Shown in pieces: positions 31,277 to 52,178 of a DNA stretch of 56,849 nt. The translations under genes were made by a program, and so were the position numbers. The stretch lies in the IMG/VR virus record IMGVR_UViG_3300019871_000001, positions 1-56,849 of that record; one strand, 5' to 3'. Each line of letters opens with the position of its first letter. Within the stretch, counting starts at the first letter, position 1. Origin of the DNA: a virus. Under the pieces are notes generated by a model. That model did no database searches. It had not been told where the DNA came from and was given only the letters and a program-made list of their open reading frames with translations.

Positions 31277-31457
31277 ATTAGTGATGTAGTATAGTGGTGG
31301 TGTAGTTACACCGTAACCTACACTTTCCCAGCGTAAGACCCATTTAGTGATGGGTGACGGTAGTGTAGGTCGATTTTTTGTGTATATAGGAGCGCCAGGG
31401 TTTTTTCCTAAAGAATACTTTTCAAAACAGGTCGTTTCCCGTCACCCGTCACCTTTT
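31277..31457 (+). repeat. Repeated non-coding element, copy A
   Basis: Positions 31277-31389 match 51998-52110 at all but about three of 113 positions; similarity continues in patches to CCGTCACCCGTCACC. Contains GGTGTAG...CACC, CCTACACT/AGTGTAGG enclosing CCCAT/ATGGG and followed by TCGATTTTTT, and GGGTGACGG able to pair with CCGTCACCC. A possible promoter TTGTGC-17-TATAGT precedes it. It forms the leader of the GIY-YIG gene. Confidence 0.85.
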
Positions 31458-31473
31458 AGATTAGGAGTTAACT

Positions 31474-32046
31474 ATGAGTGAACTTGAGTACCTGTACGTA
31501 ATTGAATTTGAAAATGGAACAGTCAAGATTGGAAGGACAGAAGACAAGGCATCCAGGATTAGTGATCATCGAACCACAGGATCGTCGCTAGGTGTTCCTG
31601 TGGTTCGTACATGGATCAGTGATGCTCATGAGGCATCTACTGAAACAGAGCGAGCCCTATTGGAGCGTCTACCTTCTCCTGCGTACGGCAGGGAGTGGTT
31701 TAGGGACGTGTCTTTCAACGAAGTGGTAGCGTTTGCTGAGGATGTTGTTCAACTGACCACAGACACAGAGCTATACCACAAGAGGCTGGTTGAAGCTGTT
31801 CGCTTGATTGAAGGACATACCGGCCGAAAGATTAACCTACGTGTAGCACTACCCCTTGAGGTAACTCACTACTTCACATTAAACGATGCGTCATACATCA
31901 TGTCTTCAACGGCGTTTGATCATTACATTCAACGTGGTGGTCAGTTGACACGCAAGAATTTTCTTCTGGCGCTCGAACAGGCAGGGATTTTTAGGCGAAG
32001 GTTTAATGATGGTGCTCGCCTTTACGGGATTGCCCTTAAGCACTAA
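31474..32046 (+). CDS. GIY-YIG-like endonuclease (T5orf172/MUG113 type)
   Basis: 190 aa; YLYVIEFENGTVKIGRTED, HRTTGSSLG, and GREWFRDVSFNEVVAF follow the T5orf172 pattern, with the second Y replaced (VKIG). C-terminal half (RKINLRVALPLEVTHYF...) may recognise DNA. AGGAG before ATG. Its leader is repeat copy A, so the nuclease and repeat may form one mobile or regulatory unit. Confidence 0.7.
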   Translation: MSELEYLYVIEFENGTVKIGRTEDKASRISDHRTTGSSLGVPVVRTWISDAHEASTETERALLERLPSPAYGREWFRDVSFNEVVAFAEDVVQLTTDTELYHKRLVEAVRLIEGHTGRKINLRVALPLEVTHYFTLNDASYIMSSTAFDHYIQRGGQLTRKNFLLALEQAGIFRRRFNDGARLYGIALKH

Positions 32047-32058
32047 ACATGCTATACT
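32030..32058 (+). promoter_or_regulatory. Probable promoter for DNA polymerase
   Basis: TTGCCC, 17-bp spacer, TATACT. A GCGC-(8)-GCGC hairpin follows in the leader. Confidence 0.5.
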
Positions 32059-32103
32059 CTTGACATGTGACATTGCGCCTAAAGATGCGCACACAACGAA
32101 GAG

Positions 32104-34008
32104 ATGAGTAGCATGATTACACTTGCAGGAAAGGTTACCGAGCAGCGCGTAGAGGTACGTGTGATCGAGAACGATGAGGATTTAGATGAATGCATTGAGT
32201 GGATGAAGGAGCGTCAGGCATACGAACTATGCTTCGACACTGAAACCACAGGGCTCGACCAATTCGACCCGACGTTCCGTATCCGTAGTGTTCAGGTAGG
32301 CAATGCTACGCGAGCATACGTGTTGGTGATGAGGAGCGTCAGGGATCATCGTGCCGTGCGCATCTTACGCCTCCTACGTGATCTGGGATTCTCAGCACAC
32401 AACATGCCCTTCGATGCCGTAGCGTGCCACGTAACAGGGCTCTTCGAATTCAGTGAGTGGGAGGAGAAGTATCACGACACACGTATCCTCTCCCACTTGA
32501 TCGACCCACGTTCAAAGATGGATGGGGGCGTCGGGCACGCCTTGAAGGAACTTTCCACACGTCACATCGACCCTAATGCTGCTGATGGGCAGACAGCGTT
32601 GAAGGAAGAATTTAAGAAGATCGGGTGCACCATCGCTACAGGGTGGGCTAAGATCTCCACAGACAATCGCGTGTGGTTGTTTTACGCGGGGTTTGATACG
32701 ATTTTGGGCGCACGGTATCATGATCACGCGCGTGGTGTGGTGAATAGGGAGGGCTATGGGCGCTTGGCTAGGTTTGAGCATGAGGTGCAGCGTGTTACGA
32801 CACGCATGAAGATCCGTGGGTTTAGGGTTGATGTTGAGTTTACAAAGCTGTTGATGCAGCGTTTGCAGGTGCGCTTTGATGAGGGCACGTTGAAGGTTCA
32901 GGCGTTGGGGGTGGAGAACATGAACTCCCCGAAGCAAGTCGCTACGAATTTGTTGTCACGCGGGTGGCGACCACAGGAGACTACGAAGTCAGGGGCACCC
33001 AAGACTGACAAGGCAGTGATGGAGAAGTTGATTGAGGATGTTAACACTCCTGTTGATGTGAAGATTTTGCTTGAGGCTATCATTGATGCTAAGCGCGCCC
33101 GTAAATGGAGGGCCGCCTATGCAGAAGCGATGCTCAATGCGCGCGACTTCCGTGACCACGTCCACCCTGACATCAACTCACTACAGGCACGTACAGCACG
33201 CATGTCCATCTCCAACCCACCTCTCCAACAACTCCCCTCACGTGGGGATGACGCATGGATCATTCGCAGGCAAGTCATTGCAGATGAGGGCATGGTAATT
33301 GGAAGCGCCGACTACGACCAGGTTGAGTTTAGGGTGTTGGCAGGGCTTGCGGGCATTTCACAGATGAAATATGCTATTGCAAATGGGATTGACCTTCACG
33401 ATTACACTGCTCAACTTGTGTACGGCGAGGAGTTCACGAACGCGCAACGCAGCATGGGCAAGGGCATTGGGTTTGGGAAGGTGTTTGGTGGTGGGGCAGC
33501 TACGCTGAGCAGGCAGACGGGAGCACCCATTGACCAGGTTAAGGCGGCCATTAAGGCGTATGAAGAGGCATACTTCGAACTCCCAGCGTTCGCTAAATCC
33601 CTACAGCGTGAGCAAAGGCAGCGTGGTGGGTTCATCATCAATCACCATGGGCGTTACCTCCCACTTGATACGGGCAGGGAGTATGCAGCGGTGAACTACA
33701 GTGTACAGAGCATCGCACGTGACATTTTGGCACAAGCGTTGATTGATTTGAGCGCCGCCGGGTTGGACGATCACCTTTTGTTGCCCGTGCATGATGAGGT
33801 GTTGTGGCAAGCGAAGCGCGAGGATGCCGTTGAAGTGGCACATGAAGTCGGCAGGGTGATGAGTGGCACGTTCATTGACATCCCTATCTCAGCTACGGGT
33901 GAGGTGTACGGTAAGACGTGGGCTGAGGGGTACATCAAGAGGCGCAACGGGAAGGTCTATGCTAAGGGCACGGGTAATGAGATCATAGATTGGGTTGAGG
34001 CGGCATGA
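32104..34008 (+). CDS. DNA polymerase, family A
   Basis: 634 aa, a 3'-5' exonuclease plus polymerase without a 5'-3' exonuclease. Exo I: CFDTETTGLDQF near residue 40. Polymerase motif A: SADYDQVEFRVLAGL; O-helix region: QRSMGKGIGFGKVFGGGA; motif C: LLPVHDEVLW. Replicates phage DNA. A GAAGAG lies close to the ATG; an in-frame ATG nine nt downstream is an alternative. Confidence 0.93.
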   Translation: MSSMITLAGKVTEQRVEVRVIENDEDLDECIEWMKERQAYELCFDTETTGLDQFDPTFRIRSVQVGNATRAYVLVMRSVRDHRAVRILRLLRDLGFSAHNMPFDAVACHVTGLFEFSEWEEKYHDTRILSHLIDPRSKMDGGVGHALKELSTRHIDPNAADGQTALKEEFKKIGCTIATGWAKISTDNRVWLFYAGFDTILGARYHDHARGVVNREGYGRLARFEHEVQRVTTRMKIRGFRVDVEFTKLLMQRLQVRFDEGTLKVQALGVENMNSPKQVATNLLSRGWRPQETTKSGAPKTDKAVMEKLIEDVNTPVDVKILLEAIIDAKRARKWRAAYAEAMLNARDFRDHVHPDINSLQARTARMSISNPPLQQLPSRGDDAWIIRRQVIADEGMVIGSADYDQVEFRVLAGLAGISQMKYAIANGIDLHDYTAQLVYGEEFTNAQRSMGKGIGFGKVFGGGAATLSRQTGAPIDQVKAAIKAYEEAYFELPAFAKSLQREQRQRGGFIINHHGRYLPLDTGREYAAVNYSVQSIARDILAQALIDLSAAGLDDHLLLPVHDEVLWQAKREDAVEVAHEVGRVMSGTFIDIPISATGEVYGKTWAEGYIKRRNGKVYAKGTGNEIIDWVEAA

Positions 34009-34244
34009 TCATGAGTGAGGAGCACGATGTGGCACAGTTCATTATTACGCAGCGTGTTCCTGTCTCACTCACAGTGATGCCCCAGTGGATGTGGGATCAG
34101 CCCCTCTCTGACGACGATTTGATTTTCCTGTTGACACAGCACCTGTTGAGTAGTACGGTGGTGATGAAGAGGGCGCAAAGTGCAGTGGAGGAGCACAAGC
34201 GCACTAGATCCTATGTGAAGAAGGAGAGGTTAGGGTATGTTTGA
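34005..34244 (+). CDS. Hypothetical protein, 79 aa
   Basis: Overlaps the polymerase stop by 4 nt (ATGA). Helical, no recognised domain. Alternative start ATG 34011. Confidence 0.65.
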   Translation: MIMSEEHDVAQFIITQRVPVSLTVMPQWMWDQPLSDDDLIFLLTQHLLSSTVVMKRAQSAVEEHKRTRSYVKKERLGYV

Positions 34245-34434
34245 GTACTACGAACTCATCGATGGCTTGGGTCAAGACTACTACCGTCTTGACAGTGATG
34301 GTAATATAGAACGGTGGGACAGTGAGAAGCACGCGTGGTTTGATAGCAAATTGCAGCAAGTTGATCTTGACGCCTTCTCCTCTTCCCCCTACACTCTAAG
34401 TTTCACAGAGGTTACAGAGGATGATGTTCGATGA
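34237..34434 (+). CDS. Acidic hypothetical protein, 65 aa
   Basis: GGAGAGG upstream. Rich in Asp, Tyr, Ser; resembles small DNA-mimic-like acidic phage proteins in composition only. ATGA overlap with next gene. Confidence 0.6.
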   Translation: MFEYYELIDGLGQDYYRLDSDGNIERWDSEKHAWFDSKLQQVDLDAFSSSPYTLSFTEVTEDDVR

Positions 34435-34733
34435 CTGAAGAAGAGTGCGGTACGTGCCCTGCCTGCGACATGTCTTTTGTCGGTCCCGATATCCCTCAGC
34501 AACACCTCCTTGATGGGTATTACGGAGAGTGGAATTCTGGTGACGCTCCGCAGTACTACTCGCTCATCGTTGGGGTTGAGGTTCCAGAGGTCTACGACGG
34601 GGTTAGTTATTGGATGTGCCCTTTTTGTGGCGCACGGTGGCATAGGTTCCCCGATGAGTATGCGTATCGTAGGCGTCGCCGCAGTGTTGAACAGTATTGG
34701 CGTGTCATTGATGCAGAGGATGATGTGCGGTGA
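34431..34733 (+). CDS. Zinc-finger-like protein, 100 aa
   Basis: CGTCPACDMSF and WMCPFCGARWHRFP give two Cys pairs spaced by about 60 aa, likely a split zinc ribbon. Acidic with an Arg-rich patch (YRRRRRS). GTGA overlap with next gene. Confidence 0.65.
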   Translation: MTEEECGTCPACDMSFVGPDIPQQHLLDGYYGEWNSGDAPQYYSLIVGVEVPEVYDGVSYWMCPFCGARWHRFPDEYAYRRRRRSVEQYWRVIDAEDDVR

Positions 34734-34885
34734 CACAGGAAGAGTTTGAGAAGCGCGTGGAAGTGTTGACATCGGAGTGCTTGGTGTTGTATGGTGATGG
34801 ACAGGACATGCGAGAGATGTTGTGGTACATGGCTGACGGGGTGGCTATGTTCATGATCGAAAAGTTGAAGGAGGATTTGCCATGA
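34730..34885 (+). CDS. Helical hypothetical protein, 51 aa
   Basis: GTG 34730 and TGA 34885 overlap both neighbours by 4 nt, giving strong operon evidence. Amphipathic, Met-rich. Confidence 0.6.
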   Translation: MTQEEFEKRVEVLTSECLVLYGDGQDMREMLWYMADGVAMFMIEKLKEDLP

Positions 34886-35676
34886 CGTTCATTGTGATTG
34901 GTAGCACAGCGGCACGCTATCACTTGGGAGCGGAGTGGCGTGAACCTAAGGACCTAGATATCTTCATGTCCGATCCCATCATTGAACCTGACAGCAAGGT
35001 AGATCAATATTGGGATGACGCAATGTATAACATTTGGCATGAGGATGAGGCACGCCACGCAACGCTTGATGAATTGTATACAATCAAGTTGTCGCACGCA
35101 TATTGGGAATTGAAGAACGGTAGTTGGAATAAGCACATGGCCGATGCTATGCTGTTGAAGCGTGAGGGTGCTGTGCTTATGCCGGACATGCATCGTACAC
35201 TGTATAACATTTGGGAGCGCGACCACGGCAAGAAGACCATTGATCTCAATCAAGACAAGGCGATGTTCTTCGACGATGCTGTGAAGCGCACGTATGATCA
35301 TGACAGCATTCACTACTCTGTGTCATACGACGACGACCCTGTGTACACAACGGTGTTGAAGGACAACAACGAAGTTGCTATTGACATGAACAAGGTCAAG
35401 GCACTACCATTTGAGCGTAAGGTGCAGTTGTACAGGGAAGAGGTGTATGCTACAGCGTTGGAGCGCATCGTGATCCCTAAAAATTACATGTGTTCCCCCA
35501 ACGCTGCCTACTCATGGGCGCTACGGCGCACGATCACACGTCTCACGAAGGGCTGGAGCGCTACGTTCATGGCTGACAACTTCGAGACGTTCCGCAAGCC
35601 AGACGTAAAGTATGTTGACGTTCACAAAAGCAAAGCACACAAGTTGATTAATATTGAGAGGAAGGTTGAGGTATGA
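34882..35676 (+). CDS. Nucleotidyltransferase-like phage protein
   Basis: 264 aa. FIVIGSTAARYHLGAEWREPKDLDIFMS at the N-terminus carries the GS-(x)n-KDLDI pattern of minimal nucleotidyltransferase folds. The remainder is helical with many His/Asp/Tyr (HDSIHYSVSYDDDP). Substrate unknown. ATGA coupling to both neighbours. Confidence 0.6.
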   Translation: MTFIVIGSTAARYHLGAEWREPKDLDIFMSDPIIEPDSKVDQYWDDAMYNIWHEDEARHATLDELYTIKLSHAYWELKNGSWNKHMADAMLLKREGAVLMPDMHRTLYNIWERDHGKKTIDLNQDKAMFFDDAVKRTYDHDSIHYSVSYDDDPVYTTVLKDNNEVAIDMNKVKALPFERKVQLYREEVYATALERIVIPKNYMCSPNAAYSWALRRTITRLTKGWSATFMADNFETFRKPDVKYVDVHKSKAHKLINIERKVEV

Positions 35677-36026
35677 CGCGCACGGATTACACGATCGAGG
35701 AGTTTATTGACGCGCTTGGGCGCACAGTGGTAGGTGTTGAGTACGAAGAGGGAGACTCCGATGGGTATTGGTGGGGTGAGGTCGATTACTCGGACCTTGA
35801 TACCTTCCCGTTTGGTGTTGTTACGATCGTGAGGAATGAGGGTGGAGGTGAGGGAGGCACGGAAAATGTCGAACTAGTTTTGCAGGTAACGCATCCCGAT
35901 ACCACCGAGCGCTATTTTCGAAAGTATGGTTCGTATTTTTCACATGATGGATTTTATTGGGACGGTCCTGTGGAAGAGGTTCGAGCGTATGCTAAGGTCG
36001 TTACAGATTATGCGGTGATTAAGTGA
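35673..36026 (+). CDS. Hypothetical protein, 117 aa (paralogue pair, member 1)
   Basis: Contains GVEYEEGDSDGYWWGEVDY and RYFRKYGSYFSHDGFYWDG. Shares with the next gene the order (beta-rich core) - aromatic YF/FF - KxGxYxSxxxxxW - E - repeated Ala - Y at the end, so the two look duplicated. Function unknown. Confidence 0.6.
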   Translation: MTRTDYTIEEFIDALGRTVVGVEYEEGDSDGYWWGEVDYSDLDTFPFGVVTIVRNEGGGEGGTENVELVLQVTHPDTTERYFRKYGSYFSHDGFYWDGPVEEVRAYAKVVTDYAVIK

Positions 36027-36364
36027 TGCAGGTTGAGTTGACTGCTAACGTGGCACGTGGTGTGTTGTTGGATTATGCACAGCAGAATGGGGCGTACATC
36101 ACAGATGAGGTGGATGCGTGGGCATGGTGGATGGAGAGGACGCGCAGCATTGACATTCAGGGGGTCACGTTTGAGGTGGTTGACAAGCGTGAGGGCAATG
36201 ACAGTGATGGTGATGAGATGTTCGTCGTGTTCAAGGTCAGTACGGAGTGGGAGGTGGCGAAGTTCTTCAGTTTGAAGGGCACCTACCGATCCTATGGGGA
36301 GACACAGTGGGGCGCTATGGTCGAGGCGCAAGCACGCACGAAGACCATCATCGAGTACTATTGA
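36026..36364 (+). CDS. Hypothetical protein, 112 aa (paralogue pair, member 2)
   Basis: ATG 36026 (or GTG 36023) overlaps the previous stop. ITDEVDAWAWWMERTRSIDI then FEVVDKREGNDSDGDEMF and KFFSLKGTYRSYGETQWG align by eye with the preceding gene. Unknown function. Confidence 0.6.
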   Translation: MQVELTANVARGVLLDYAQQNGAYITDEVDAWAWWMERTRSIDIQGVTFEVVDKREGNDSDGDEMFVVFKVSTEWEVAKFFSLKGTYRSYGETQWGAMVEAQARTKTIIEYY

Positions 36365-36370
36365 GTTGCG

Positions 36371-36400
36371 CGGGGCATCTTCACACGCGGAGATGCCCCG
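36371..36400 (+). terminator. Possible terminator
   Basis: CGGGGCATCT/AGATGCCCCG, 10 bp with a 10-nt loop, no clear T-tract. The following gap to 36506 also holds GTTAGG-ata-CCTAAC (36449-36463), maybe an operator. Confidence 0.55.
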
Positions 36401-36506
36401 TCCGACCCCCCTATTCGCCCCTACGGCTTGCGTAAATAGCGCCGGAGGGTTAGGATACCTAACATGACATTCGACGCCTGAGATTTTGATTGAGAAATGA
36501 GGGTTT

Positions 36507-36701
36507 ATGACCAGCACAAAGCTCACAGTGTGGTACGATAGACTTGACAACGAACGATCTGTGTTCGAACTGAATATTAATGATCGTTCGTTGGTTGAAA
36601 TTTTGCTAGGAGATTTATGGTTCAGTGTGGTTGGTAGTAAGACAGGTAAGGTTTACTTTGCGTGCCCACGTGAACACATTATCAGCGTGAAGGAGCACTG
36701 A
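36507..36701 (+). CDS. Hypothetical protein, 64 aa
   Basis: GAGGG before ATG. Beta-rich sequence (KLTVWYDRLDNERSVFEL); not recognised. Confidence 0.6.
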   Translation: MTSTKLTVWYDRLDNERSVFELNINDRSLVEILLGDLWFSVVGSKTGKVYFACPREHIISVKEH

Positions 36702-36704
36702 CAC

Positions 36705-36857
36705 ATGCCACCGAAGGCCGTACGTTTCCGTGTAGAATTCAAGGACACGATCATGAACACGTGGCGTGCCCTTGCCGTAGGGTTGACGCGCAAAGATGCT
36801 GAAACGTTGCGTAAGATTGTTACGTTGTACGACACGCGCATGAAGGAAGAGGACTGA
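36705..36857 (+). CDS. Basic hypothetical protein, 50 aa
   Basis: AAGGAG before ATG 36705. Sequence MPPKAVRFRVEFKDTIMNTW... ends in a charged helix. Its 3' end carries the ribosome site of the coiled-coil gene. Confidence 0.6.
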   Translation: MPPKAVRFRVEFKDTIMNTWRALAVGLTRKDAETLRKIVTLYDTRMKEED

Positions 36858-36860
36858 CGT

Positions 36861-37481
36861 ATGGATTTTGAACGCGCCAAGCAAGCACAAACGTACATCC
36901 ACCAGCAAACTGCAATTTTGGTGGAGGAGGCGTATCATAACGACAAAGCAATCGAGCGACAGAAGAAAACTATCGAGGGGTTGCAGAAGCAAATCGAGAT
37001 TCTTGCTGAACACCCTACCGAAGTTCAATTCAGGGGCCTGCTTGATAAGATCGATGACCTACAGGCGCAGGTGTACAAGCACCGTGAGTATGGGCGTCTT
37101 AAGGATGCAGCGAAGATGAAGGTTGAGGAGAAGTGGAGGAGCGCTGAGATTCAGGTTGAGCGCTTGTTGCAGGCTACACAGGACGTCGACATCCTTAGGC
37201 ACGAAGTGACACGCCTGAAGGAACTGAACGAAACGCAAGCCATTGCGTACCAAGCCCTTGAACGCACCATCGTCATGAACAAGAGCACGGCAGGGTATAT
37301 CAAGGACCAAATTTACAACCTTGAGACTGAACAGTCGTTGAAGAAGAAGATTCAGGGGTTGGATTTAGCGCTAGAGGATGCCATGCAGTCAGGGGCAGAG
37401 TTTCAGCGCTTGTATTTGGCGGAGGTTCAGAAGACTAAGCGTGTTCTGGATGCAGCGAATGGGGTTCATGACACATGGTGA
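36861..37481 (+). CDS. Coiled-coil protein, 206 aa
   Basis: Almost entirely heptad-repeat helix rich in Gln, Glu, Lys (KAIERQKKTIEGLQKQIEIL onwards). No catalytic motif. Likely a scaffold or regulator; overlaps dCMP deaminase by 7 nt. Confidence 0.65.
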   Translation: MDFERAKQAQTYIHQQTAILVEEAYHNDKAIERQKKTIEGLQKQIEILAEHPTEVQFRGLLDKIDDLQAQVYKHREYGRLKDAAKMKVEEKWRSAEIQVERLLQATQDVDILRHEVTRLKELNETQAIAYQALERTIVMNKSTAGYIKDQIYNLETEQSLKKKIQGLDLALEDAMQSGAEFQRLYLAEVQKTKRVLDAANGVHDTW

Positions 37482-37885
37482 CACGCGCATCGTGGGATCA
37501 GTACTTCATGCTGTTAGCGGAGCAGGCAGCGACACGTAGCACATGTTCACGTCTGCATGTCGGCGCTGTTGTTGTGCGTGCACGTCAGGTTGTCAGCACA
37601 GGGTATAATGGTGCGCCTAAGGGTATGGATCATTGTGTGCATACAGTGGACGCCCCATGTGAGATTAGTGTGCACGCTGAGGCGAACGCTTTGCTACACG
37701 ACAAAACCCCAGAGTACGGTGACATTGATAAGGTGATGTATGTCACACACGCTCCATGCTACGGGTGTGCTAAACTCATTTTGAACGCTGACATTGGTGG
37801 CGTGTTTTATGGCGCTGAGTATGGTAGCGGGAGTGGGTTGGTGTTGTTGGAAGAGGGAGGGTTGTACGTTGGGCGAGTGGCGTGA
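37475..37885 (+). CDS. Deoxycytidylate deaminase
   Basis: 136 aa. Zinc site HAEANA (near residue 67) and HAPCYGCAK (near 93), plus STGYNGAPKGMDHC. Converts dCMP to dUMP, the substrate of the ThyX encoded at 47444. Confidence 0.92.
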   Translation: MVTRASWDQYFMLLAEQAATRSTCSRLHVGAVVVRARQVVSTGYNGAPKGMDHCVHTVDAPCEISVHAEANALLHDKTPEYGDIDKVMYVTHAPCYGCAKLILNADIGGVFYGAEYGSGSGLVLLEEGGLYVGRVA

Positions 37886-38120: not shown

Positions 38121-38121
38121 C

Positions 38122-38328: not shown

Positions 38329-38329
38329 T

Positions 38330-39228: not shown

Positions 39229-40335
39229 GTGAAGTTGCACGAACTGTTTGACATGGATTTGTTTTATGAGATGCGTCAGGCAGGGTTTGTCAAGGCACAA
39301 CGACACCCTACGTTCCCTGACGTTCTCGTGATTCTCAACTACACCGCAAAGGCACAACAGAACTATCATTGGAATGACGTTACGGAACAATGTCGTGGCC
39401 TGATTTACAACCCCATGACACTTGACGTTGTAGCCCTCCCGTTCCGTAAGTTCTACAACTACAACGAAGCACAGGCACCTACAATCGCAGGTGATGAAGA
39501 GATCACAGCATTCGATAAGATGGATGGCTCGTTGGGTATCGTTTACATGGCACCTGATGAGGTGTTACGTGTCGCTACGCGGGGTAGTTTCACGAGTGAC
39601 CAGGCGCTTTGGGCGACGCAATGGTTGTGGGACAACATTGGGAAGACATGGCAGGAGGCGCACGGGAATGGATATGAGTGGCGTCCTTACATGACGGACA
39701 TGTTTGAGATCATTTACCCTGACAATCGTATTGTTGTAGGGTATGGAGGCTACGAAGGTTTGGTTTATATTGGGTCACGAAGTATTGAGTCCGGACAGTT
39801 CGCTCTCGATGAGGGAGCTTGGGAAGGACGTAAAGCAGAACGACTTTATGAGGGGAAGTTCAGCGGCCTGTTCAACCTGCCCGATCGTGCTAACGCTGAA
39901 GGCTTCGTGGTCGTCACAGATGATGAGCGCAGGGTCAAGGTGAAGTATGATGAGTACGTGAGGATGCACCGTATCGTGTCGCACCTATCGGAGAAGTATG
40001 TGTGGGAATACTTAGGTGGCCCTTCGCCTTTACGGGCAGACGAACTGGCGCGTGACATCCCTGAGGAACACGCTGAGTGGGTGCGCGACGTGTCCAATGA
40101 TTTGTTTGGGAAGTACATGACGCACGCTATGTACATCAACGAAGTTACGCAGCGCATTGCGAAGATGACAACGCGTAAGGAGAAGGCCATCAGCATTAAG
40201 GATGAGCCTAATTGGGTTCGAGCATCTATCTTCGCTAACCTTGACAAGAAGGACTACGTTGGGATAGTGTGGAAGAGCATCAAGCCAACGTCGAATGATG
40301 ATGAAGAGGGAGATGTTCATGGCGAAGTTGATTAA
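39229..40335 (+). CDS. RNA ligase, T4 Rnl1-like
   Basis: 368 aa, GTG after AAGGAGG. Motif I KMDGSLGI (Lys near residue 98 is adenylated), ATRGSF (motif Ia), MFEIIYPDNRIVV (motif III), EGFVVVTDDERRVKVKY (motifs IV-V). ATP-dependent ligase that reseals RNA such as cut anticodon loops. Confidence 0.88.
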   Translation: MKLHELFDMDLFYEMRQAGFVKAQRHPTFPDVLVILNYTAKAQQNYHWNDVTEQCRGLIYNPMTLDVVALPFRKFYNYNEAQAPTIAGDEEITAFDKMDGSLGIVYMAPDEVLRVATRGSFTSDQALWATQWLWDNIGKTWQEAHGNGYEWRPYMTDMFEIIYPDNRIVVGYGGYEGLVYIGSRSIESGQFALDEGAWEGRKAERLYEGKFSGLFNLPDRANAEGFVVVTDDERRVKVKYDEYVRMHRIVSHLSEKYVWEYLGGPSPLRADELARDIPEEHAEWVRDVSNDLFGKYMTHAMYINEVTQRIAKMTTRKEKAISIKDEPNWVRASIFANLDKKDYVGIVWKSIKPTSNDDEEGDVHGEVD

Positions 40336-40495
40336 ATCACGCTTCGGGGTTCATACGTTTTACAACACCGGGAAAGACCGTACGGTGTGGTATGGTACGC
40401 CTGAGGCACAGGACGCAGCCCACAAACGTGAGCAAGCGTTGATTGGGAAGAAGCCCAGCGACGTGAAGTACGCTAAGAAAATTCGACGTTCTTAA
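40319..40495 (+). CDS. Basic hypothetical protein, 58 aa
   Basis: ATG 40319 after GAGGGAG, overlapping the ligase end. FGVHTFYNTGKDRTVWYGTPEAQ then Lys-rich. Pattern GVxTxYNTGKxxxVWYGT is reminiscent of the gene at 23144. Unknown. Confidence 0.6.
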   Translation: MAKLIKSRFGVHTFYNTGKDRTVWYGTPEAQDAAHKREQALIGKKPSDVKYAKKIRRS

Positions 40496-40505
40496 GGAGA
40501 GTGCA

Positions 40506-40772
40506 ATGACGACTGACGAATTGGTGCAGAATGTAATCGATCAGTTCCTTGCGAATGATGGTATGCTTGGTGCCATTGATGAGTTTGTGCGCATCGTAGC
40601 CAAGGAAGAGTTTGTGTTTGGCACATTTGTTACGTACAGCGTAGCGTTGAACAATGAAACTTTCGATGTTCGATACGTCCGAGTTCGTTGGGACGAAGAG
40701 CGCGATGAGTTTCTGGCGGCAGTAGAGGTGTTCCCTGTTACTGTGGTGAAGACTGAGTATAGGGAGAAGTGA
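40506..40772 (+). CDS. Hypothetical protein, 88 aa
   Basis: AAGGAG before ATG. Helix then beta strands; not recognised. Confidence 0.6.
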   Translation: MTTDELVQNVIDQFLANDGMLGAIDEFVRIVAKEEFVFGTFVTYSVALNNETFDVRYVRVRWDEERDEFLAAVEVFPVTVVKTEYREK

Positions 40773-42269: not shown

Positions 42270-42538
42270 TCACTGCAACTTTAGGGTTGACAGCATGTGG
42301 TCCTGCAACTAATGTCACAGGTGAGACACATTCACCTTTACCTGAACCTGTATGTTGTCCGCTTGATGATGGACATGGTGAGAAGCTTGATCAACCTTTC
42401 GAATTTCCTGCTGTTAATGTGTTTTGTTCGCATGGATTTAGGGTGTTCCAGACGTACGTAGCAAAGGGGACAAGCAGCAACTCAGGTACGGCAGTATCAA
42501 TTACTGCGCAACCTGACGTTATGTGCCCGAAATACTAA
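42239..42538 (+). CDS. Phage lipoprotein, 99 aa
   Basis: ATG 42239 (GGAGGG upstream). Signal peptide with lipobox GLTAC, then Pro/Cys-containing mature part (VCCPLDDGHGE). Probably anchored outside the membrane; superinfection exclusion is a plausible but unproven role. Overlaps the kinase gene. Confidence 0.7.
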   Translation: MRTGSLWGLLITATLGLTACGPATNVTGETHSPLPEPVCCPLDDGHGEKLDQPFEFPAVNVFCSHGFRVFQTYVAKGTSSNSGTAVSITAQPDVMCPKY

Positions 42539-45485: not shown

Positions 45486-45561
45486 CGAGAAGGATATTAA
45501 GAAGAGTGTTAAGAAGGCTCTAAAAAAGGTGCAGAAGAAGGAAAAGAAGGAGGGTAAGTGA
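45475..45561 (+). CDS. Lys-rich micropeptide, 28 aa
   Basis: ATG 45475 overlapping the methyltransferase end. Nearly half Lys (KKSVKKALKKVQKKEKKEGK). Its last codons carry GGAGGG, the ribosome site of the next gene. Confidence 0.5.
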   Translation: MTFDEKDIKKSVKKALKKVQKKEKKEGK

Positions 45562-45863: not shown

Positions 45864-45990
45864 CACTGTGGCACGCTGGTGGTATTATTCGAAGATGCAA
45901 CGTCACAAGGTTAAGGAGATGCGTGAACTCGAAAAAGCGAATAAAGCGCACTCTCGACTTGAGACGGTCGAACGCAAGCGGGACGCATAG
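45835..45990 (+). CDS. Small amphipathic protein, 51 aa
   Basis: ATG 45835, GGAGAGG upstream, overlaps the previous gene by 29 nt. Hydrophobic start (MLKLLFTMLDTVARWWYY) then charged helix; may be membrane-associated. Confidence 0.5.
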   Translation: MLKLLFTMLDTVARWWYYSKMQRHKVKEMRELEKANKAHSRLETVERKRDA

Positions 45991-46069
45991 GGATCGTAGG
46001 ACACGACGCCTTCGATCGCGACAGGCACGCAGGGAGCAACAAATACGCGACAACGAACGTGAGGAGTGA
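45923..46069 (+). CDS. Arg-rich peptide, 48 aa
   Basis: GTG 45923 after AAGGAG, nested out of frame in the previous gene's 3' half. Extremely basic (RTRRLRSRQARREQQIR). Could bind RNA or DNA. Confidence 0.45.
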   Translation: MNSKKRIKRTLDLRRSNASGTHRDRRTRRLRSRQARREQQIRDNEREE

Positions 46070-46074
46070 CAATA

Positions 46075-46239
46075 ATGAAGCACACTCATAACTATAAGTT
46101 CGTGAAGTACATTGGTGGGAAATGTCGACATTGCAAGTTGCATATTCAGGCGCAATACAAATGTAACGACAAAACGTGCAACACCGTCATTAAGCGCAAT
46201 CACAAATGCTTGGGGAAGGGTGCTAGAGATGGGTACTAG
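46075..46239 (+). CDS. Zinc-binding microprotein, 54 aa
   Basis: GAGGAG before ATG 46075. HTHNY, CRHCKLHI, CNDKTCN and NHKC provide Cys/His for one or two zinc sites. Related in pattern to the next gene. Confidence 0.6.
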   Translation: MKHTHNYKFVKYIGGKCRHCKLHIQAQYKCNDKTCNTVIKRNHKCLGKGARDGY

Positions 46240-46399
46240 GATTAATGTTGGTACGGGACCGCATGAGCACGTGTGGGCGTCACACAGAAGGAAGAAGAAG
46301 TGCAAGACGTGCGGTCAGTTTCAGGAAATTGTGTTGAAGTGTATTATGATCGGATGTCCAAGTAAGAAGACAGAGAATTACCCGTGTAATTGTAAGTAG
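46229..46399 (+). CDS. Zinc-binding microprotein, 56 aa
   Basis: ATG 46229 (GAAGGG upstream) overlaps the previous gene. HEHVW, CKTCGQF, KCIMIGC and CNC: same His-then-CxxC layout as its neighbour, so likely duplicated. Confidence 0.6.
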   Translation: MGTRINVGTGPHEHVWASHRRKKKCKTCGQFQEIVLKCIMIGCPSKKTENYPCNCK

Positions 46400-46412
46400 G
46401 AATTGAGGCGTG

Positions 46413-46625
46413 ATGAAGGCAACTTGTGGATCATGTGACAATGAATGGCCTGGCGAAACTGCTAGGGCTCATTGTTCAGTGTGCCACCACACATTTTCAA
46501 ATGCAAAGCTCTTTGATGCGCATAGGTGGGCGCGCGGAAGAGGACATGGTTGCCTTCATCCAACACGCATTGAGTTGACATTGAAAGACGGTACGTGGTA
46601 CTCTAAGGAGGACGATGATGGCTAG
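46413..46625 (+). CDS. FDXHR-type zinc-binding protein, 70 aa
   Basis: ATG 46413 (or GTG 46410). CGSCDNEW, HCSVCHHTFSNAKLFDAHRW and GCLHPTRI match the FDxHR small zinc protein family of actinophages. Confidence 0.72.
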   Translation: MKATCGSCDNEWPGETARAHCSVCHHTFSNAKLFDAHRWARGRGHGCLHPTRIELTLKDGTWYSKEDDDG

Positions 46626-46797
46626 GATTACTTGCATTGAGGGACATGATCTCCCACGACCATTCTTGGGGGACACGACATGCCCTGAGTGTGTGAAGAA
46701 AAGGGAGAAAAAGGGCACTTGGAAGACACGAAGCACGAATCACCGCACAGCCACTAAGAAATTCTTGGAGAAAAAGAACAAGAAAGAGGGTAAGTAA
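46618..46797 (+). CDS. Zinc-binding Lys-rich protein, 59 aa
   Basis: AAGGAGG before ATG 46618 (ATG 46615 also possible). CIEGHDLPRP and CPECVKKRE, then a Lys-rich tail ending KKNKKEGK whose codons hold the next gene's ribosome site. Confidence 0.6.
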   Translation: MARITCIEGHDLPRPFLGDTTCPECVKKREKKGTWKTRSTNHRTATKKFLEKKNKKEGK

Positions 46798-46974
46798 GTG
46801 AGTAAGAAGCGCGAGTTGACGGATGAGCAGAAGATGCTCATGTTCAAGTTTCTCATGTCGTTGAACGTTGTGCGTAATGGGAAGATTTATGTGGGTACGG
46901 TGTCACATAAGGAGAAGATGCGACGACGCGCTAAGGGCAAAGTTGCGAAGGCTACTCGAAAGGGGAATCGTTGA
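46798..46974 (+). CDS. Basic hypothetical protein, 58 aa
   Basis: GTG 46798 after GAGGG. Helical N-terminus (LTDEQKMLMFKFLMSLN), Arg/Lys-rich C-terminus. Coupled by TGATG to the next gene. Confidence 0.6.
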   Translation: MSKKRELTDEQKMLMFKFLMSLNVVRNGKIYVGTVSHKEKMRRRAKGKVAKATRKGNR

Positions 46975-47237
46975 TGGCACAGATCGATGGTGAGGACGCT
47001 AAGGTGAAGCGCACGTACAAAGTCAACGGGCATGACGTTTCGTTTGGCATCGCTGTGTTCGCCGCTGTTGTAGGGCTCCTCATCCTTGCGGTGTCAAGTG
47101 CATTCTTTGGGTTGGTGGTGGCGGGGGTGTTCACGATCTTCGGTGCCCCGACCGTGACGATGATTGGTGTGTGGATTGGGAGTAGCATTGCGTTCTTCCT
47201 TGATGCGTTGTATCGTGGGGTGAGTAGTGGAGAGTAA
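46974..47237 (+). CDS. Small membrane protein, 87 aa
   Basis: Two hydrophobic segments (FGIAVFAAVVGLLILAVSSA and LVVAGVFTIFGAPTVTMIGV). N-terminal basic region. Function unknown. Confidence 0.65.
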   Translation: MAQIDGEDAKVKRTYKVNGHDVSFGIAVFAAVVGLLILAVSSAFFGLVVAGVFTIFGAPTVTMIGVWIGSSIAFFLDALYRGVSSGE

Positions 47238-47454
47238 GGCGTGGTTTTTGGCACAGATTGCTGAGGTAGGGCAGCAAGCGGGGAGCGATTATCATGATGG
47301 TGAGCATGTCGAGGGGTGGTTTGGGTTTGACGTCAACGAACGTGATGGTAAGGTGTTCCTTGTCGCGCATTATGCGCCCGCACTTGATGAGGGCGTAGGG
47401 GAAACTCAGGTTAGGGAGTGGGAATTGAAGGCGAGGGGGAAGTATGAGTATTGA
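47227..47454 (+). CDS. Hypothetical protein, 75 aa
   Basis: GTG 47227 overlapping the membrane gene; stop overlaps thyX by 11 nt. EGWFGFDVNERDGKVFLVAHYA; beta-rich. Confidence 0.6.
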   Translation: MESKAWFLAQIAEVGQQAGSDYHDGEHVEGWFGFDVNERDGKVFLVAHYAPALDEGVGETQVREWELKARGKYEY

Positions 47455-48115
47455 GATTGTAGGGTATACACAGATCGATGAACTTGCTATTGCGTGGTAT
47501 ATGCGCTCAGAATATGACACTTCTTCTGCGGAGACGCTGGTGGAGTTTGCGGGGCGTGCTTGTTATCAGTCGTTCAACAAGCCTAACGAAGCCACGCGCT
47601 CGAACAAAGATTACTTGGCAAATATCCTTGATCAGGGGCATGAGAGCGTCTTGGAGCACGCTAGTGTGTCGTTCTACGTGACAGGGTTCTCGCGCAACAT
47701 GCTCCTTGAACTTGAGAGGCACCGACACCTATCGTTCTCTGTTATCTCGACACGTTTCGTTGACGCCACTAAAATGCAGGTGGTGATTCCCCCGGCGCTA
47801 CGTGTTGGAGACAAGACGCTTGAAGAGCTCCCGCCTGAGACTGTGGACACGTACAATAGTATTGTGGAGCATCTACTTAATCAGGGCAAGACGCGCAAGG
47901 AAGCACGTGAAGCAGCACGTTACCTACTCCCGGGTAACTTGGAGACGAAGTTTGTACTGACGGGTAACTTACGAGCGTATCGTGATGTGTTGAAGAAGCG
48001 TTGGTCACAGCACGCAGACGCTGAGATTCGCTTGCTTGCAGCTGAGATTCTTGCTAAGCTACGTGAACACGCACCGAACGTCTTCCAAGATTTCCCTACG
48101 GTGCCCTTTACGTAA
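47444..48115 (+). CDS. thyX: Flavin-dependent thymidylate synthase ThyX
   Basis: 223 aa. ThyX signature RHRHLSFSVISTR (residues about 92-104) and upstream HESVLEHASVSFYV; C-terminal LRAYRDVLKKRW. Makes dTMP from dUMP using FAD and methylene-folate, downstream of the dCMP deaminase. Confidence 0.93.
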   Translation: MSIEIVGYTQIDELAIAWYMRSEYDTSSAETLVEFAGRACYQSFNKPNEATRSNKDYLANILDQGHESVLEHASVSFYVTGFSRNMLLELERHRHLSFSVISTRFVDATKMQVVIPPALRVGDKTLEELPPETVDTYNSIVEHLLNQGKTRKEAREAARYLLPGNLETKFVLTGNLRAYRDVLKKRWSQHADAEIRLLAAEILAKLREHAPNVFQDFPTVPFT

Positions 48116-48125
48116 GGAGTGACAC

Positions 48126-48482
48126 ATGACAATGCCAAACGGCCCGATGGGAGCTCTTTTAAGCTTTAAAAGCGATATTCCTTCGTGTATGGCATATCGT
48201 AACATGCTCGTGAATTCGGATGAGTACGAGTGGATGGGTAAAGAAGCGTTTGATGAGATGCTGAATTACAATGAACCTCAGAGGGAAGCAGATGGTTTTT
48301 GTAATTGCCGCCCACCGTACAATGGTGCAGTATGGAGTCAAGTCATGGCGCTTCCCGAAAGTAAGGTTAAGCCTCTTGCAAAGAATCGCTTTATCGACAC
48401 GCTAGAGGACTTTCAGGAAGAGATTGAGGCAGAGCGTCAGGATAACGTGCGACGTGGTCGGGCACCGATGGATGTTATGTAG
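48126..48482 (+). CDS. Hypothetical protein, 118 aa
   Basis: AAGGAG before ATG. DEMLNYNEPQREADGFCNCR then a helical acidic C-terminus. Not recognised. Confidence 0.6.
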   Translation: MTMPNGPMGALLSFKSDIPSCMAYRNMLVNSDEYEWMGKEAFDEMLNYNEPQREADGFCNCRPPYNGAVWSQVMALPESKVKPLAKNRFIDTLEDFQEEIEAERQDNVRRGRAPMDVM

Positions 48483-48511
48483 TTTGCCTTCTGAATAAGG
48501 AGGTGATACAC

Positions 48512-48625
48512 TTGAGTGGCAAAAAAGGGCGAACAGGAAAGAAGCGCACTTCTACAGCCCCGAAAAGGGGAGGTAAGAAGGATGGTAGGCGCACAGCGAA
48601 TGGGCGCAAGAAGCGTAAGAAGTAA
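48512..48625 (+). CDS. Highly basic micropeptide, 37 aa
   Basis: TTG 48512 behind AAGGAGGTGAT, the full anti-Shine-Dalgarno complement, the strongest ribosome site in the window. Product is Lys/Arg/Gly only (GKKGRTGKKRT ... RKKRKK), like a histone tail. Probable nucleic-acid binding. Confidence 0.6.
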   Translation: MSGKKGRTGKKRTSTAPKRGGKKDGRRTANGRKKRKK

Positions 48626-48654
48626 CATGTAACGTAGAGTAAGGAGAGTGTGAC

Positions 48655-48825
48655 ATGCAGGTTCCTACGATTCGTGAAGTTTACACTGTCGATGAATTTG
48701 TCAAGGGCAAGATGAGGAAGTACGAAGTTGTGGACCTATTTGACTTTGACCTCCCCAACCCTGTATACTCTGCTTACACCGAACGTGAAGCTGAAGATTT
48801 CATCCTCGGATGGTTGGATGGCTGA
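48655..48825 (+). CDS. Hypothetical protein, 56 aa
   Basis: AAGGAGAG before ATG 48655. Acidic, aromatic (EVVDLFDFDLPNPVYSAYTE). Last gene before a terminator. Confidence 0.6.
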   Translation: MQVPTIREVYTVDEFVKGKMRKYEVVDLFDFDLPNPVYSAYTEREAEDFILGWLDG

Positions 48826-48872
48826 TTAAACTTCCCGGCGATGTCTCCCGCATCGTAACATGAAACGGGAGG

Positions 48873-48916
48873 AGAACCCCACACCAAAGCGGGCGCTGAG
48901 GTGTGGGGTTCTTTGT
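48873..48916 (+). terminator. Terminator
   Basis: AGAACCCCACACC/GGTGTGGGGTTCT, 13-bp perfect stem, 14-nt loop, then TTGTGTCTT. Confidence 0.85.
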
Positions 48917-48934
48917 GTCTTGACCTGGGATATG

Positions 48935-48940
48935 TAGCGT
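48935..48940 (+). promoter_or_regulatory. -10 box for leaderless rusA
   Basis: TATG-TAGCGT, then exactly 6 nt to ATG 48947; no ribosome site between. Confidence 0.5.
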
Positions 48941-48946
48941 CCTGAC

Positions 48947-49366
48947 ATGGAAGGTTACGATTTGATTCTAGACGTGTACGTGGCTGGTGAGCCTGTACCA
49001 CAAGGCTCTTTGGCGCAGGGCGCTGGGGGCAGGATGTATTGGGCGAACAGTAAGCGCCTACGTCCATGGCGTAAGGCTATGACTGACGCGTGTCAGGCGT
49101 TCATGCCGCGCAATTGGGGCGATGGGTATGATGATGCGGTGCGCGTTGAGTTGACGTTCTATCATACACGCGGCGCGAGCGTTAAGCGACGATACAAGGT
49201 CACGGCTGGTGATAGTGATAAATTGGCGCGTGCTGCCCTCGACTCCCTTACAGATGCAAAGCTTTACACAGATGACTCACGTGTGGTAGAATTGATGGTA
49301 AGCAAGCATTACGCAGATGATCATGAACCTGGTGTTATCATCCGCGCATGGACACTACCACACTAA
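48947..49366 (+). CDS. rusA: RusA-like Holliday junction resolvase
   Basis: 139 aa. GEPVPQGSLAQG at the start and GDSDKLARAALDSLTDAKLYTDDSRV (Asp residues of the active site near 87-110) are RusA hallmarks. Cuts branched DNA from recombination or before packaging. Leaderless start. Confidence 0.9.
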   Translation: MEGYDLILDVYVAGEPVPQGSLAQGAGGRMYWANSKRLRPWRKAMTDACQAFMPRNWGDGYDDAVRVELTFYHTRGASVKRRYKVTAGDSDKLARAALDSLTDAKLYTDDSRVVELMVSKHYADDHEPGVIIRAWTLPH

Positions 49367-49377
49367 GGAGTCGTATC

Positions 49378-49518
49378 ATGAAGAATGTGACATGCGATAG
49401 CGATTGTAAAGAATGCATTTTCGCATGTCACATGGACCATGAGAACGACGACGATGAAGATACAAAGGAGAGTGATCAAGTTGAGCGACCCATCGTGGAT
49501 TGTGGAGAAAACCGCTGA
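49378..49518 (+). CDS. Cys-rich acidic peptide, 46 aa
   Basis: AAGGAG before ATG 49378. CDSDCKECIFACHMDH gives a dense Cys/His cluster, then an acidic tail. Zinc- or metal-binding likely. Confidence 0.6.
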   Translation: MKNVTCDSDCKECIFACHMDHENDDDEDTKESDQVERPIVDCGENR

Positions 49519-50077
49519 GGCTTATGCAGAGGTCTTGGATGAGGAATGGGATGCACTCTCTCCCGAAAGGCAAATGAAGTTTCGCATCTTGGCATACAAC
49601 GTTCTAGACAATCACATGCGCAACAAAATCAATGGGATGAAGCTCAGCATTAGTGTTGTTGAGGATGTTCTGTGTGCGCCTAGCACACCCAAGCGTTGGT
49701 TGCCTGGCGTGCAGGAGGCTAAGAATGCGTTGTTCTTCGCGTTGGAGATTGAAGGCGATGCGTTGGAGGTGCGCGTAAACATCCCTGAGAGCGTCCCTAA
49801 CGGCCTAGAATCCCACGACCCATACTCGACCCTCGAAGCGGGGGATTTGGACCCCTATGAAGCGATGGGGGACAAGAGTGAGAGGTGTGGGAAGGTGCAT
49901 GGTGAAGGGTGGAGCTGTACACGCCCCGTACACCCTGAGCATTTTCAGTGTTGGGACGCAGAACCCGCAGAGTTCTATCGTGACTGTGAGGGCGAAATCC
50001 TCGTAACGTGGACCAGTGAAGATGAATTGACGTCTGTACACCCAGCAGTGTTGGAGTATGACGGTCCACAAGAATAA
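49481..50077 (+). CDS. Hypothetical protein, 198 aa
   Basis: Probable TTG 49481 start (AAGGAGAG upstream; ATG 49454 possible). Helical N-terminal half (EKTAEAYAEVLDEEWDALSP), C-terminal ERCGKVHGEGWSCTRPVHPE with Cys/His. Not recognised. Confidence 0.6.
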   Translation: MSDPSWIVEKTAEAYAEVLDEEWDALSPERQMKFRILAYNVLDNHMRNKINGMKLSISVVEDVLCAPSTPKRWLPGVQEAKNALFFALEIEGDALEVRVNIPESVPNGLESHDPYSTLEAGDLDPYEAMGDKSERCGKVHGEGWSCTRPVHPEHFQCWDAEPAEFYRDCEGEILVTWTSEDELTSVHPAVLEYDGPQE

Positions 50078-50091
50078 TACTGCGTGGCATT

Positions 50092-50129
50092 GCAAAACCC
50101 CTCACCATGTGATACGGTGAGGGGTTTGC
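50092..50129 (+). terminator. Terminator before sigma-factor gene
   Basis: AAACCCCTCACC/GGTGAGGGGTTT, 12-bp stem and 9-nt loop, overlapping the -35 of the next promoter. Confidence 0.8.
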
Positions 50130-50154
50130 TATTTCTCAGGTATTATGGTATGAT
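50126..50154 (+). promoter_or_regulatory. Leaderless promoter of the sigma-like gene
   Basis: TTGCTA, 17-bp spacer, TATGAT, 6 nt, ATG 50161. Confidence 0.7.
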
Positions 50155-50160
50155 GTACGG

Positions 50161-50862
50161 ATGACTGAAGAAATGACGATGGAGGAGCGCATTGCCTTCG
50201 GTAAGGCTCTCATCTCCACTAAGCACCCTGAACTATACACCTATTTGGCGAGGCGCGCAAGGGCATGGAGGACTGATGATAGTAGGATTGAGGACATCAT
50301 CAGTGGGACCATTGAAAGGTTGTTGATTGAGAACACCGTGAAGCCTTTCGACAACGCTCGTACGTTGTGGGGACGCGCCACAAATATTGCCAAGGAAGAG
50401 ATTGCCCAAAGCTTCGCCTCACGCTTGCCTCTAAGCGGGGTTAAGTTTCAGGCGCACCGCACAGCCACACTCGCACTACAGGCCGCTGGTGGCGATCCTA
50501 AGGCTGCGTATCACATGCAAACGGGAACGTCGCGCGTAGGACGTGAACTCCTATTTGCTGTGGCACATGGTCCATCCCTCTACTCCCCTGAGTACATGCA
50601 AGACCTGAACCCTCTAGACGATGAGAATTTGAGCGTCTTGTCGTCACAAGATGAGGATAACATTCGTATCGCCATTGCATCGCTGAGTGAAAAAGAGCAG
50701 ACTGTGGTGAGGAATCGTATGTGGTTGAGGATGACGAATAAGCAGTGTGCTGAAGAGATGCAGGTGAGTGTGGAGAACGTTAGGAAGACGTGGGCATCTG
50801 CGCTCAAGAAATTGCGCCCTGTCCTCCAAACCTCTTTGTCTGACAAGTATTCCGACATGTAG
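50161..50862 (+). CDS. RNA polymerase sigma factor-like protein
   Basis: 233 aa. N-terminal helix set (SRIEDIISGTIERLL ... ARTLWGRATNIAKEEI) resembles region 2; residues about 170-222 are a region 4 helix-turn-helix: SLSEKEQTVVRNRMWLRMTN then CAEEMQVSVENVRKTWASAL. May redirect host polymerase to phage late promoters. Followed by an ATGTAGCAT sequence. Confidence 0.8.
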   Translation: MTEEMTMEERIAFGKALISTKHPELYTYLARRARAWRTDDSRIEDIISGTIERLLIENTVKPFDNARTLWGRATNIAKEEIAQSFASRLPLSGVKFQAHRTATLALQAAGGDPKAAYHMQTGTSRVGRELLFAVAHGPSLYSPEYMQDLNPLDDENLSVLSSQDEDNIRIAIASLSEKEQTVVRNRMWLRMTNKQCAEEMQVSVENVRKTWASALKKLRPVLQTSLSDKYSDM

Positions 50863-50972
50863 CATGTGCACGAGAACACACGACAGGCGTTAATCCTCTC
50901 AACGCTGTCAAGCCTCTCATAGTGCGCCCTACATTCGTTGAGTTGTACTCGCGTCATGTACGCGCGACGCAC

Positions 50973-51020
50973 AAAAGCCCCATGTTACAGGTCCCCTTCC
51001 ACCTGTAACATGGGGCTTTT
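50973..51020. terminator. Bidirectional terminator between convergent arms
   Basis: Perfect 20-bp inverted repeat AAAAGCCCCATG...CATGGGGCTTTT with an 8-nt loop and T-tracts on both sides. The 110 nt before it (50863-50972) hold no gene. Confidence 0.93.
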
Positions 51021-51039
51021 TCATGCCCTTTTACACACA

Positions 51040-51240
51040 TCACTCGACAAACTTCGCCAAGTCTTTCAGAGTATCAGCGAATGCAATTGCATCTGCACGT
51101 GAAAGTTCAATGACAGTAACATCATCACCTTCACGCATCAAAAGCACCAACCCCTTGATAAGAACCTCAGCGTCCAAATAATCCGTCGTAATGTACTTGT
51201 CATACACTACAATACGTCGTTTACCATACGCCACACTCAT
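51040..51240 (-). CDS. Hypothetical protein, 66 aa
   Basis: ATG 51240 overlapping the upstream stop (ATGA). Alpha/beta, EVLIKGLVLLMREGDDVTVIEL; not recognised. Confidence 0.6.
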   Translation of the reverse strand: MSVAYGKRRIVVYDKYITTDYLDAEVLIKGLVLLMREGDDVTVIELSRADAIAFADTLKDLAKFVE

Positions 51241-51338
51241 TTCTTACCCCCACGCTTCTTCACCACAGTACCCTTCTCCTGTGCCTTGTCAATCTTCTTA
51301 TCGCTCTTCTTCACCTTACGCGGGATTTTCTCAATCAT
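51237..51338 (-). CDS. Lys-rich micropeptide, 33 aa
   Basis: ATG 51338 after GGAGTG. Lys makes up over a third (RKVKKSDKKIDKAQEKGT). The end of the gene carries GTGGGGGT, the next ribosome site. Confidence 0.5.
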   Translation of the reverse strand: MIEKIPRKVKKSDKKIDKAQEKGTVVKKRGGKK

Positions 51339-51341
51339 ACA

Positions 51342-51650
51342 TCACACTCCATACTCTTCGTAGGCTTCCATCAACTTATCATTAGCGTCTTCCAAGGCGT
51401 GCTTAACCTTGATTTTATCATCGATCATACTAGCATTCCAAAACCCTAGCCCTAGTATACCAGGAAGTGTGATGACATGCAACACAAAGAATTGAGGATC
51501 AAATAAAATCCCTGTAATAACACAAGTGGCCTCTACCAAAAACCACACCACCCATACAAAGGCAATGAACCATGTCTCAGCACGAAACCCCTCAAGATTT
51601 CGTGTAGCCACCTTAACGTCTTGCTGTGCGTCGCGCACTAGATAGTGCAT
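51342..51650 (-). CDS. Membrane protein, 102 aa (paralogue pair)
   Basis: Two to three hydrophobic segments (WFIAFVWVVWFLVEATCVIT, FFVLHVITLPGILGLGFW) flanked by charged helices; RNLEGFR before and NASMI...KHALEDANDKL after. Same layout as the next gene. TAATG-type junction. Confidence 0.65.
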   Translation of the reverse strand: MHYLVRDAQQDVKVATRNLEGFRAETWFIAFVWVVWFLVEATCVITGILFDPQFFVLHVITLPGILGLGFWNASMIDDKIKVKHALEDANDKLMEAYEEYGV

Positions 51651-51979
51651 TACAGTGCCTCCCTCTGCATCTGCGCAGCAATCAAAGCATCCTGCGCGCT
51701 CAGCATCGTTTCCTTAGCGTTACGCACCGTGTGCTTTTGCGTACTCAACGTATCCGCATTCCTAACCCCACACCACAACTGTACGAACGCACAGAAACAC
51801 TGAAACAGCACAACCCACGATGCAGGGAAGACCACGGCACACGTCACGCAGAAGAAGAACATGACGATGTTGAGTGTGAGCATAGCACGCACAAGGCGCT
51901 GAAAGTTACGCTCTGAACGGTAGTATGACTCGGCGAATGCTGCGTCACGTGCAAGTTCTGTTACACTTTCGTTATACAT
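51650..51979 (-). CDS. Membrane protein, 109 aa (paralogue pair)
   Basis: Start ATG 51979 with GAGAGG upstream; a longer frame runs through repeat copy B but has no ribosome site. RNFQRLVRA, two hydrophobic segments, then RNADTLSTQKHTVRNAKETM mirrors the neighbour, so a duplicated pair. Confidence 0.65.
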   Translation of the reverse strand: MYNESVTELARDAAFAESYYRSERNFQRLVRAMLTLNIVMFFFCVTCAVVFPASWVVLFQCFCAFVQLWCGVRNADTLSTQKHTVRNAKETMLSAQDALIAAQMQREAL

Positions 51980-51997
51980 ATCAAACCTCTCTAAGGA

Positions 51998-52178
51998 ATT
52001 AGTGATGTAGCAGGGTGGTGGTGTAGTTACACCGTAACCTACACTTTCCCAGCGTAAGACCCATTTAGTGATGGGTGACGGTAGTGTAGGTCGATTTTTT
52101 GTGTATATAGAGAATTCTATGAAAATTCCCAAAGAATACTTTCTAAAACACCCCCCGGAACCGTCACCCGTCACCTTT
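51998..52178 (+). repeat. Repeated non-coding element, copy B
   Basis: Same plus-strand orientation and near-identical sequence to copy A (51998-52110), with downstream AAAGAATACTTT and CCGTCACCCGTCACC at matching distances. Here the flanking genes are leftward, so local mRNA reads the opposite strand. The upstream TATAGT of copy A is changed to CAGGGT. Confidence 0.85.

Follow-up and report, generated by a model that had tools for sequence, protein, structure and literature searches.

Twin iteron elements as candidate replication origins of a P4-family primase-helicase in phiC31-type and related actinobacteriophages

Why would a phage carry the same short stretch of DNA twice, more than 20 kb apart? 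The question is raised by viral record IMGVR_UViG_3300019871_000001 (56,849 nt, analysed at its full length and referred to here as the window), in which an earlier note had reported two near-identical non-coding elements. The pair is borne out: positions 31277-31389 and 51998-52110 show 3 mismatches in 113 nt (97% identity) and represent the longest well-matched distant pair of the window. In a gapped self-search it grows to 31277-31456 (copy 1, the proximal element) and 51998-52178 (copy 2, the distal element), with 86% identity over 182 columns (E 3e-54 to 7e-52) and a score of 201 bits, versus 55 bits for the runner-up distant self-match. The patches of similarity that had been noticed at constant distances from the core were also recovered, namely AAAGAATACTTT (31410-31421 and 52131-52142) and CCGTCACCCGTCACC (31439-31453 and 52161-52175), and the features of copy 2 repeat those of copy 1 at +20,721/20,722. 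The claim that both elements are non-coding holds for copy 1, which lies between the stop of a primase gene (31220) and the next ATG (31474) and is separated from the former by a terminator-like hairpin (31233-31263). Copy 2 is only likely to be non-coding; it is located upstream of the likely ATG (51979) of a minus-strand gene, and longer, mechanically called ORFs run across it. The copies share one orientation (plus strand), while the genes flanking copy 1 are on the plus strand and those flanking copy 2 on the minus strand, which speaks for action at the level of DNA.

Analysis of the two copies reveals a common, origin-like layout. In copy 1, direct iterons (TGATGGG, TGACGGT and (AG)TGTAGG(T); 31348-31369, plus strand) are followed by an A+T-rich core (31370-31438; 65% A+T vs 49%), which contains AAAGAATACTTT as a dyad, and by inverted iterons, i.e. 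CCGTCACCCGTCACC on the minus strand. Copy 2 has its direct iterons at 52069-52090 (plus strand), its core at 52091-52160 (67% A+T), again with AAAGAATACTTT, and the same inverted iterons on the minus strand. Among the 66-nt stretches of the window, only 0.4% match the A+T-richness of the core of copy 1, and 0.2% that of copy 2. The plus strand of copy 1 additionally carries a short palindrome, GGTGTAGTTACACC, and an inverted pair, CCTACACT ... AGTGTAGG. Iterons repeated on either side of an A+T-rich stretch are a strong feature in relatives of this phage; in the window taken singly they are less marked in number, the count of 6-mer iterons being not unusual (p 0.25). The case for an origin rests on the comparison between phages. 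In GC-rich genomes, scans for clusters of 6-mers give too much noise to locate the elements unaided. The GC skew, examined in phages whose genes lie almost entirely on the same strand, shows no inflection that tracks the copies.

Copy 1 lies directly 3' of the primase/helicase gene (28860-31220, plus strand), whose product we propose as the initiator. Domain matches assign to it a Prim-Pol domain, a D5_N domain and an SF3 helicase, and the protein matches the NCBI model TIGR01613 ("phage/plasmid primase, P4 family") far above the cut-off (E 3e-73). Among solved structures, the closest in sequence is 7ola ("DNA primase", E 6e-21), which we take to be the SaPI5 primase-helicase; the alignment spans the helicase and reaches into the C-terminal domain. 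That domain by itself gave no sequence match. In the AlphaFold model (mean pLDDT 68, about 73-89 in the C-terminal part) it shows the order strand-helix-helix-strand-strand of a winged helix, and a fold search with the protein returned hexameric D5-type primase-helicases. A genome collection yielded just a single distant relative, which comes from Amycolatopsis (31%).

Another replication gene is found next to copy 1, encoding a family A DNA polymerase (32104-34008, plus strand); between the two lies a T5orf172/GIY-YIG-type gene (31474-32046). Copy 2 follows a plus-strand gene for a sigma-70-like protein (50161-50862; regions 2/4-type match). Elsewhere the window phage possesses 23 tRNA genes, a member of the T4-type RNA ligase/tail fibre attachment protein family (39229-40335, phrog_562), an ArdA-like antirestriction protein (54158-54610), and a run of collagen-like 9-nt (GXY-type) repeats (20208-20473) within a tail-region gene (19977-20591).

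We found five viral contigs with a primase 69-71% identical to that of the window. All three whose contigs are long enough possess a twin of their own element, at both places as in the window, and the twins are 13.5 kb apart at 93% identity, 20.0 kb apart at 80%, and 21.3 kb apart at 76%. The gap after the primase gene in these relatives matches the window element at the nucleotide level only in short iteron words, and it holds TGTAGGG or TGACRGG iterons around A+T-richer DNA. The distal element lies 0.8-1.4 kb after the sigma-like gene in all four window-family phages. As the relatives have elements at both places, each with sequences of its own, the two locations persist although the sequence at them changes, and the copies track each other. 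The earlier note had proposed that relatives lacking the element at either place would speak against a function, and the three long relatives have it at both. Its view of the element as conserved stands for the pair within each phage and for the architecture, and does not stand for the sequence between phages. Copy 1 found nothing similar among 50,697 phage records, copy 2 nothing among 72,556 plasmid records, and an exact 21-mer of the element had no match in the viral contigs searched, so the element sequence is private to each phage and the architecture alone recurs.

The helicase half of the window primase (residues 305-780) is shared, at about 40% identity, by several named phages, in which the primase half differs: it is zinc-binding (CPAH..DS) and Toprim-like, with Toprim-type primases among its solved relatives. 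The same helicase half is hence found with a Prim-Pol (AEP) primase half in the window family and with a CHC2/Toprim-like one in phiC31-type phages, and the change is apparently a domain swap that left the twin sites in place. Twins are present in five of five named phages (TG1, Cassia, Moss, UtzChips and Sycamore), with lengths of 90-172 nt, identities of 79-87% and distances of 13-22 kb. Here the elements lie before an exonuclease-type gene and after a serine integrase, and the primase gene is preceded by the proximal element, at 3-9 kb, rather than followed by it. Twins also occur in 29 of 36 further viral contigs that encode this helicase and measure about 40 kb or more (26 at the first count and three once contig ends were added), a set that is partly redundant and partly made up of prophage fragments, in a search restricted to the plus strand, which favours pairs in the same orientation. 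Two twin-bearing records, of 41,491 bp and 41,831 bp, are presumably phiC31 and phiBT1; their twins are 75% and 82% identical, respectively, and in the presumed phiC31 record they occupy 21636-21768 (element A) and 40416-40547 (element B).

The typical layout, >> < (53-56 nt) > <<, has a near-constant geometry across phages. The iteron word varies from phage to phage (GTGACG, ATGACG, GGGACG, TGTAGG) and is common to both copies within a phage. Among the distal elements, a phage's own was the best match in 27 of 35 cases, and in 20 of 35 the own partner outscores the proximal element of every other phage. A partial Mantel test of the C-terminal domain against the element, beyond helicase distance, gave only a weak signal (p 0.10). 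No twin was detected in seven of the 36 helicase contigs (G009, G012, G019, G023, G032, G036 and G043), and inverted pairs of element length were likewise absent from these seven; G009 and G012 still have a proximal iteron-like cluster. Among controls with DnaB-type or other replication genes, a small set of three (R4, Smeadley and Min1), no twin was found, the best self-match in R4 reaching 53 bits; phage Judy, which has a distant D5 primase, has no twin either.

Repeats of other kinds were encountered in the course of these comparisons. Mycobacteriophage Emerson (L205), like Judy a distant D5 phage, contains start-associated repeats of about 85 nt (18466-18539, 19269-19355 and 39406-39491) with TTGACA-like boxes; we rejected them as elements of the present type, as they are associated with gene starts and end at AGGAG..ATG, and they are a different repeat family. 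G012, of the Arthrobacter-type group, has multi-copy intergenic repeats of the form TGAGCAGCT..CGCCCCTCCCGGCCCCCT (28159-28225, 32016-32070, 36698-36760 and 42278-42334). Related GAGCA..GGCCGACTCCT repeats are present in other phages, and in Moss, G010 and G016 they lie just to the right of the twins.

The analyses presented here establish the pair itself, its anatomy, the pairing in dozens of phages and the domains of the initiator. Of the functions that had been suggested for the repeat, that of a replication origin is strongly supported by the origin-like anatomy, the adjacent gene for a candidate initiator of the P4 family and the occurrence of twins across phages. The sites are alike in design, private to each phage, matched within it and tied to one helicase family, which points to recognition sites of that helicase. 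In our opinion, both copies are probably iteron origins of the phage's P4-family primase/SF3 helicase, copy 1 being the main one and copy 2 a second site. According to this model, the predicted C-terminal winged helix of the initiator would read the GTG-type iterons, hexamers would assemble on the opposed iteron groups, and the A+T core would then melt; the helicase would load itself and the fused primase would start synthesis. Copy 1, beside the initiator gene, would serve as the main origin, and copy 2, as its shared iterons suggest, as a second origin-type site for the same protein. There replication might start a second time, or the bound initiator might form a block, in which case it would help to switch from circle to concatemer replication. 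For the broader proposition we see about even chances: that an entire actinobacteriophage branch including phiC31 maintains a matched pair of origin modules served by a single self-loading primase-helicase. The second module would then be required for itself, either as a partner origin or as a concatemer switch that blocks forks, and the match between the two would be maintained through gene conversion or through co-adaptation to an initiator that changes fast.

Could the twins instead be operators or promoters, through which a phage repressor or the phage's own sigma-like factor (50161-50862) controls transcription at two places? Both copies lie in gaps before genes, and a sigma-70-like protein is indeed encoded in the window, near copy 2. 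However, neither copy contains a sigma-70-like promoter, and their common orientation is at odds with downstream genes that run opposite ways. Phages of this group usually have one dominant long pair rather than many short operators, separate multi-copy short repeats exist in TG1 and phiC31-type phages, and neither the A+T core between opposed iterons nor the association with an SF3 helicase is what operators would lead one to expect. We therefore regard transcription control as unlikely. That both copies give rise to a small RNA, another suggestion of the earlier note, or to a structured RNA leader appears highly improbable. The RNA fold of copy 1 does beat shuffled sequences (z -3.6), but opposed iterons would give such a fold anyway, and a hairpin would not need direct iterons. 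No Rfam match was obtained, with only tRNAs found in the window, and the plus strand of copy 2 is antisense to the neighbouring genes; the co-oriented copies, flanked by plus-strand genes in one case and minus-strand genes in the other, disfavour this idea as well.

There is equally little to recommend a further group of explanations, to which we assign a very small probability: that the twins serve recombination, that the GIY-YIG nuclease targets them, or that they arose by a recent chance duplication. The T5orf172/GIY-YIG-type gene starts at 31474, adjoining copy 1, which would suit a homing target, yet it is absent from the corresponding place in relatives (L003, L004, L005 and L007), including those that bear twins. 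Recombination might be suspected from the location of copy 2 beside the serine integrase in named phages, but the TG1 element follows int, whereas attP of phiJoe lies upstream of int (PMC5311408), and in the window family copy 2 is near the sigma-like gene with no integrase there; twins are found in dozens of phages whether an integrase adjoins them or not. Chance duplication would not yield twins in dozens of phages with unrelated sequence.

Each of these phages (phiC31, phiBT1, TG1 and several named Arthrobacter, Microbacterium and Curtobacterium phages) now has two candidate origins with coordinates and a candidate initiator. In the searchable papers we found no description of the replication origin of phiC31-type phages and no earlier description of the twins; as the search covered few subscription papers, a prior report may exist. 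The matched pairs with their changing iteron words constitute a natural set of protein-DNA recognition variants. The reason for having two origins becomes directly testable, and so does the question whether the two-site design of SPP1 and P4 is a general solution to the concatemer switch.

Known systems offer partial parallels. Satellite P4 has a second cis site, crr, besides ori, and by analogy copy 2 would most likely work like crr or like oriR of SPP1. The P4 alpha protein combines a Toprim primase, an SF3 helicase and a winged helix, the last of which binds the ori repeats (PMC4234260); this domain set resembles that of the phiC31-type relatives, whereas in the window protein a Prim-Pol half takes the place of Toprim, and, in contrast to the satellite, the twins are 13-22 kb apart and reside in complete tailed phages. 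SaPI5 Rep and SCCmec Cch2 possess a helicase homologous to that of the window, and the site is 3' of the gene: in SaPI Rep and SCC Cch2 the C-terminal domain recognises iterons that lie 3' of the gene for the protein itself (the Cch2 iteron being AAGTG), and SaPI origins are directly downstream of rep, although a single origin is described for these elements (PMC7581432), versus two matched ones here. The combination of AEP prim-pol, SF3 helicase and winged helix, with an origin directly 3' of the gene, is found also in pRN1 (3' of orf904) and phage BIP-1, but there the origin is a long stem-loop of about 100 nt, in one copy and without iterons (PMC4234260).

A further parallel to the twins is offered by Bacillus phage SPP1, in which gp38 binds both oriL and oriR, about 13 kb apart, and the fork is thought to stall at oriR, so starting concatemer synthesis (PMC6316719). 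Like the twins, these are two distant modules of direct repeats and an A+T-rich region, bound in SPP1 by one protein (PMC6316719). SPP1 differs in that oriL lies inside gene 38 and in that binder (gp38), loader (gp39) and DnaB-type helicase (gp40) are separate, where the window phage would use a single self-loading primase-helicase. As the replication gene identified here encodes an SF3 primase-helicase, we do not class the window phage with SPP1-type systems and suggest only that it works in a similar way. What began as one odd repeat has grown into a probable twin-origin design shared by a group of phages, a model phage among them, and would be a variant of the known two-origin phages.
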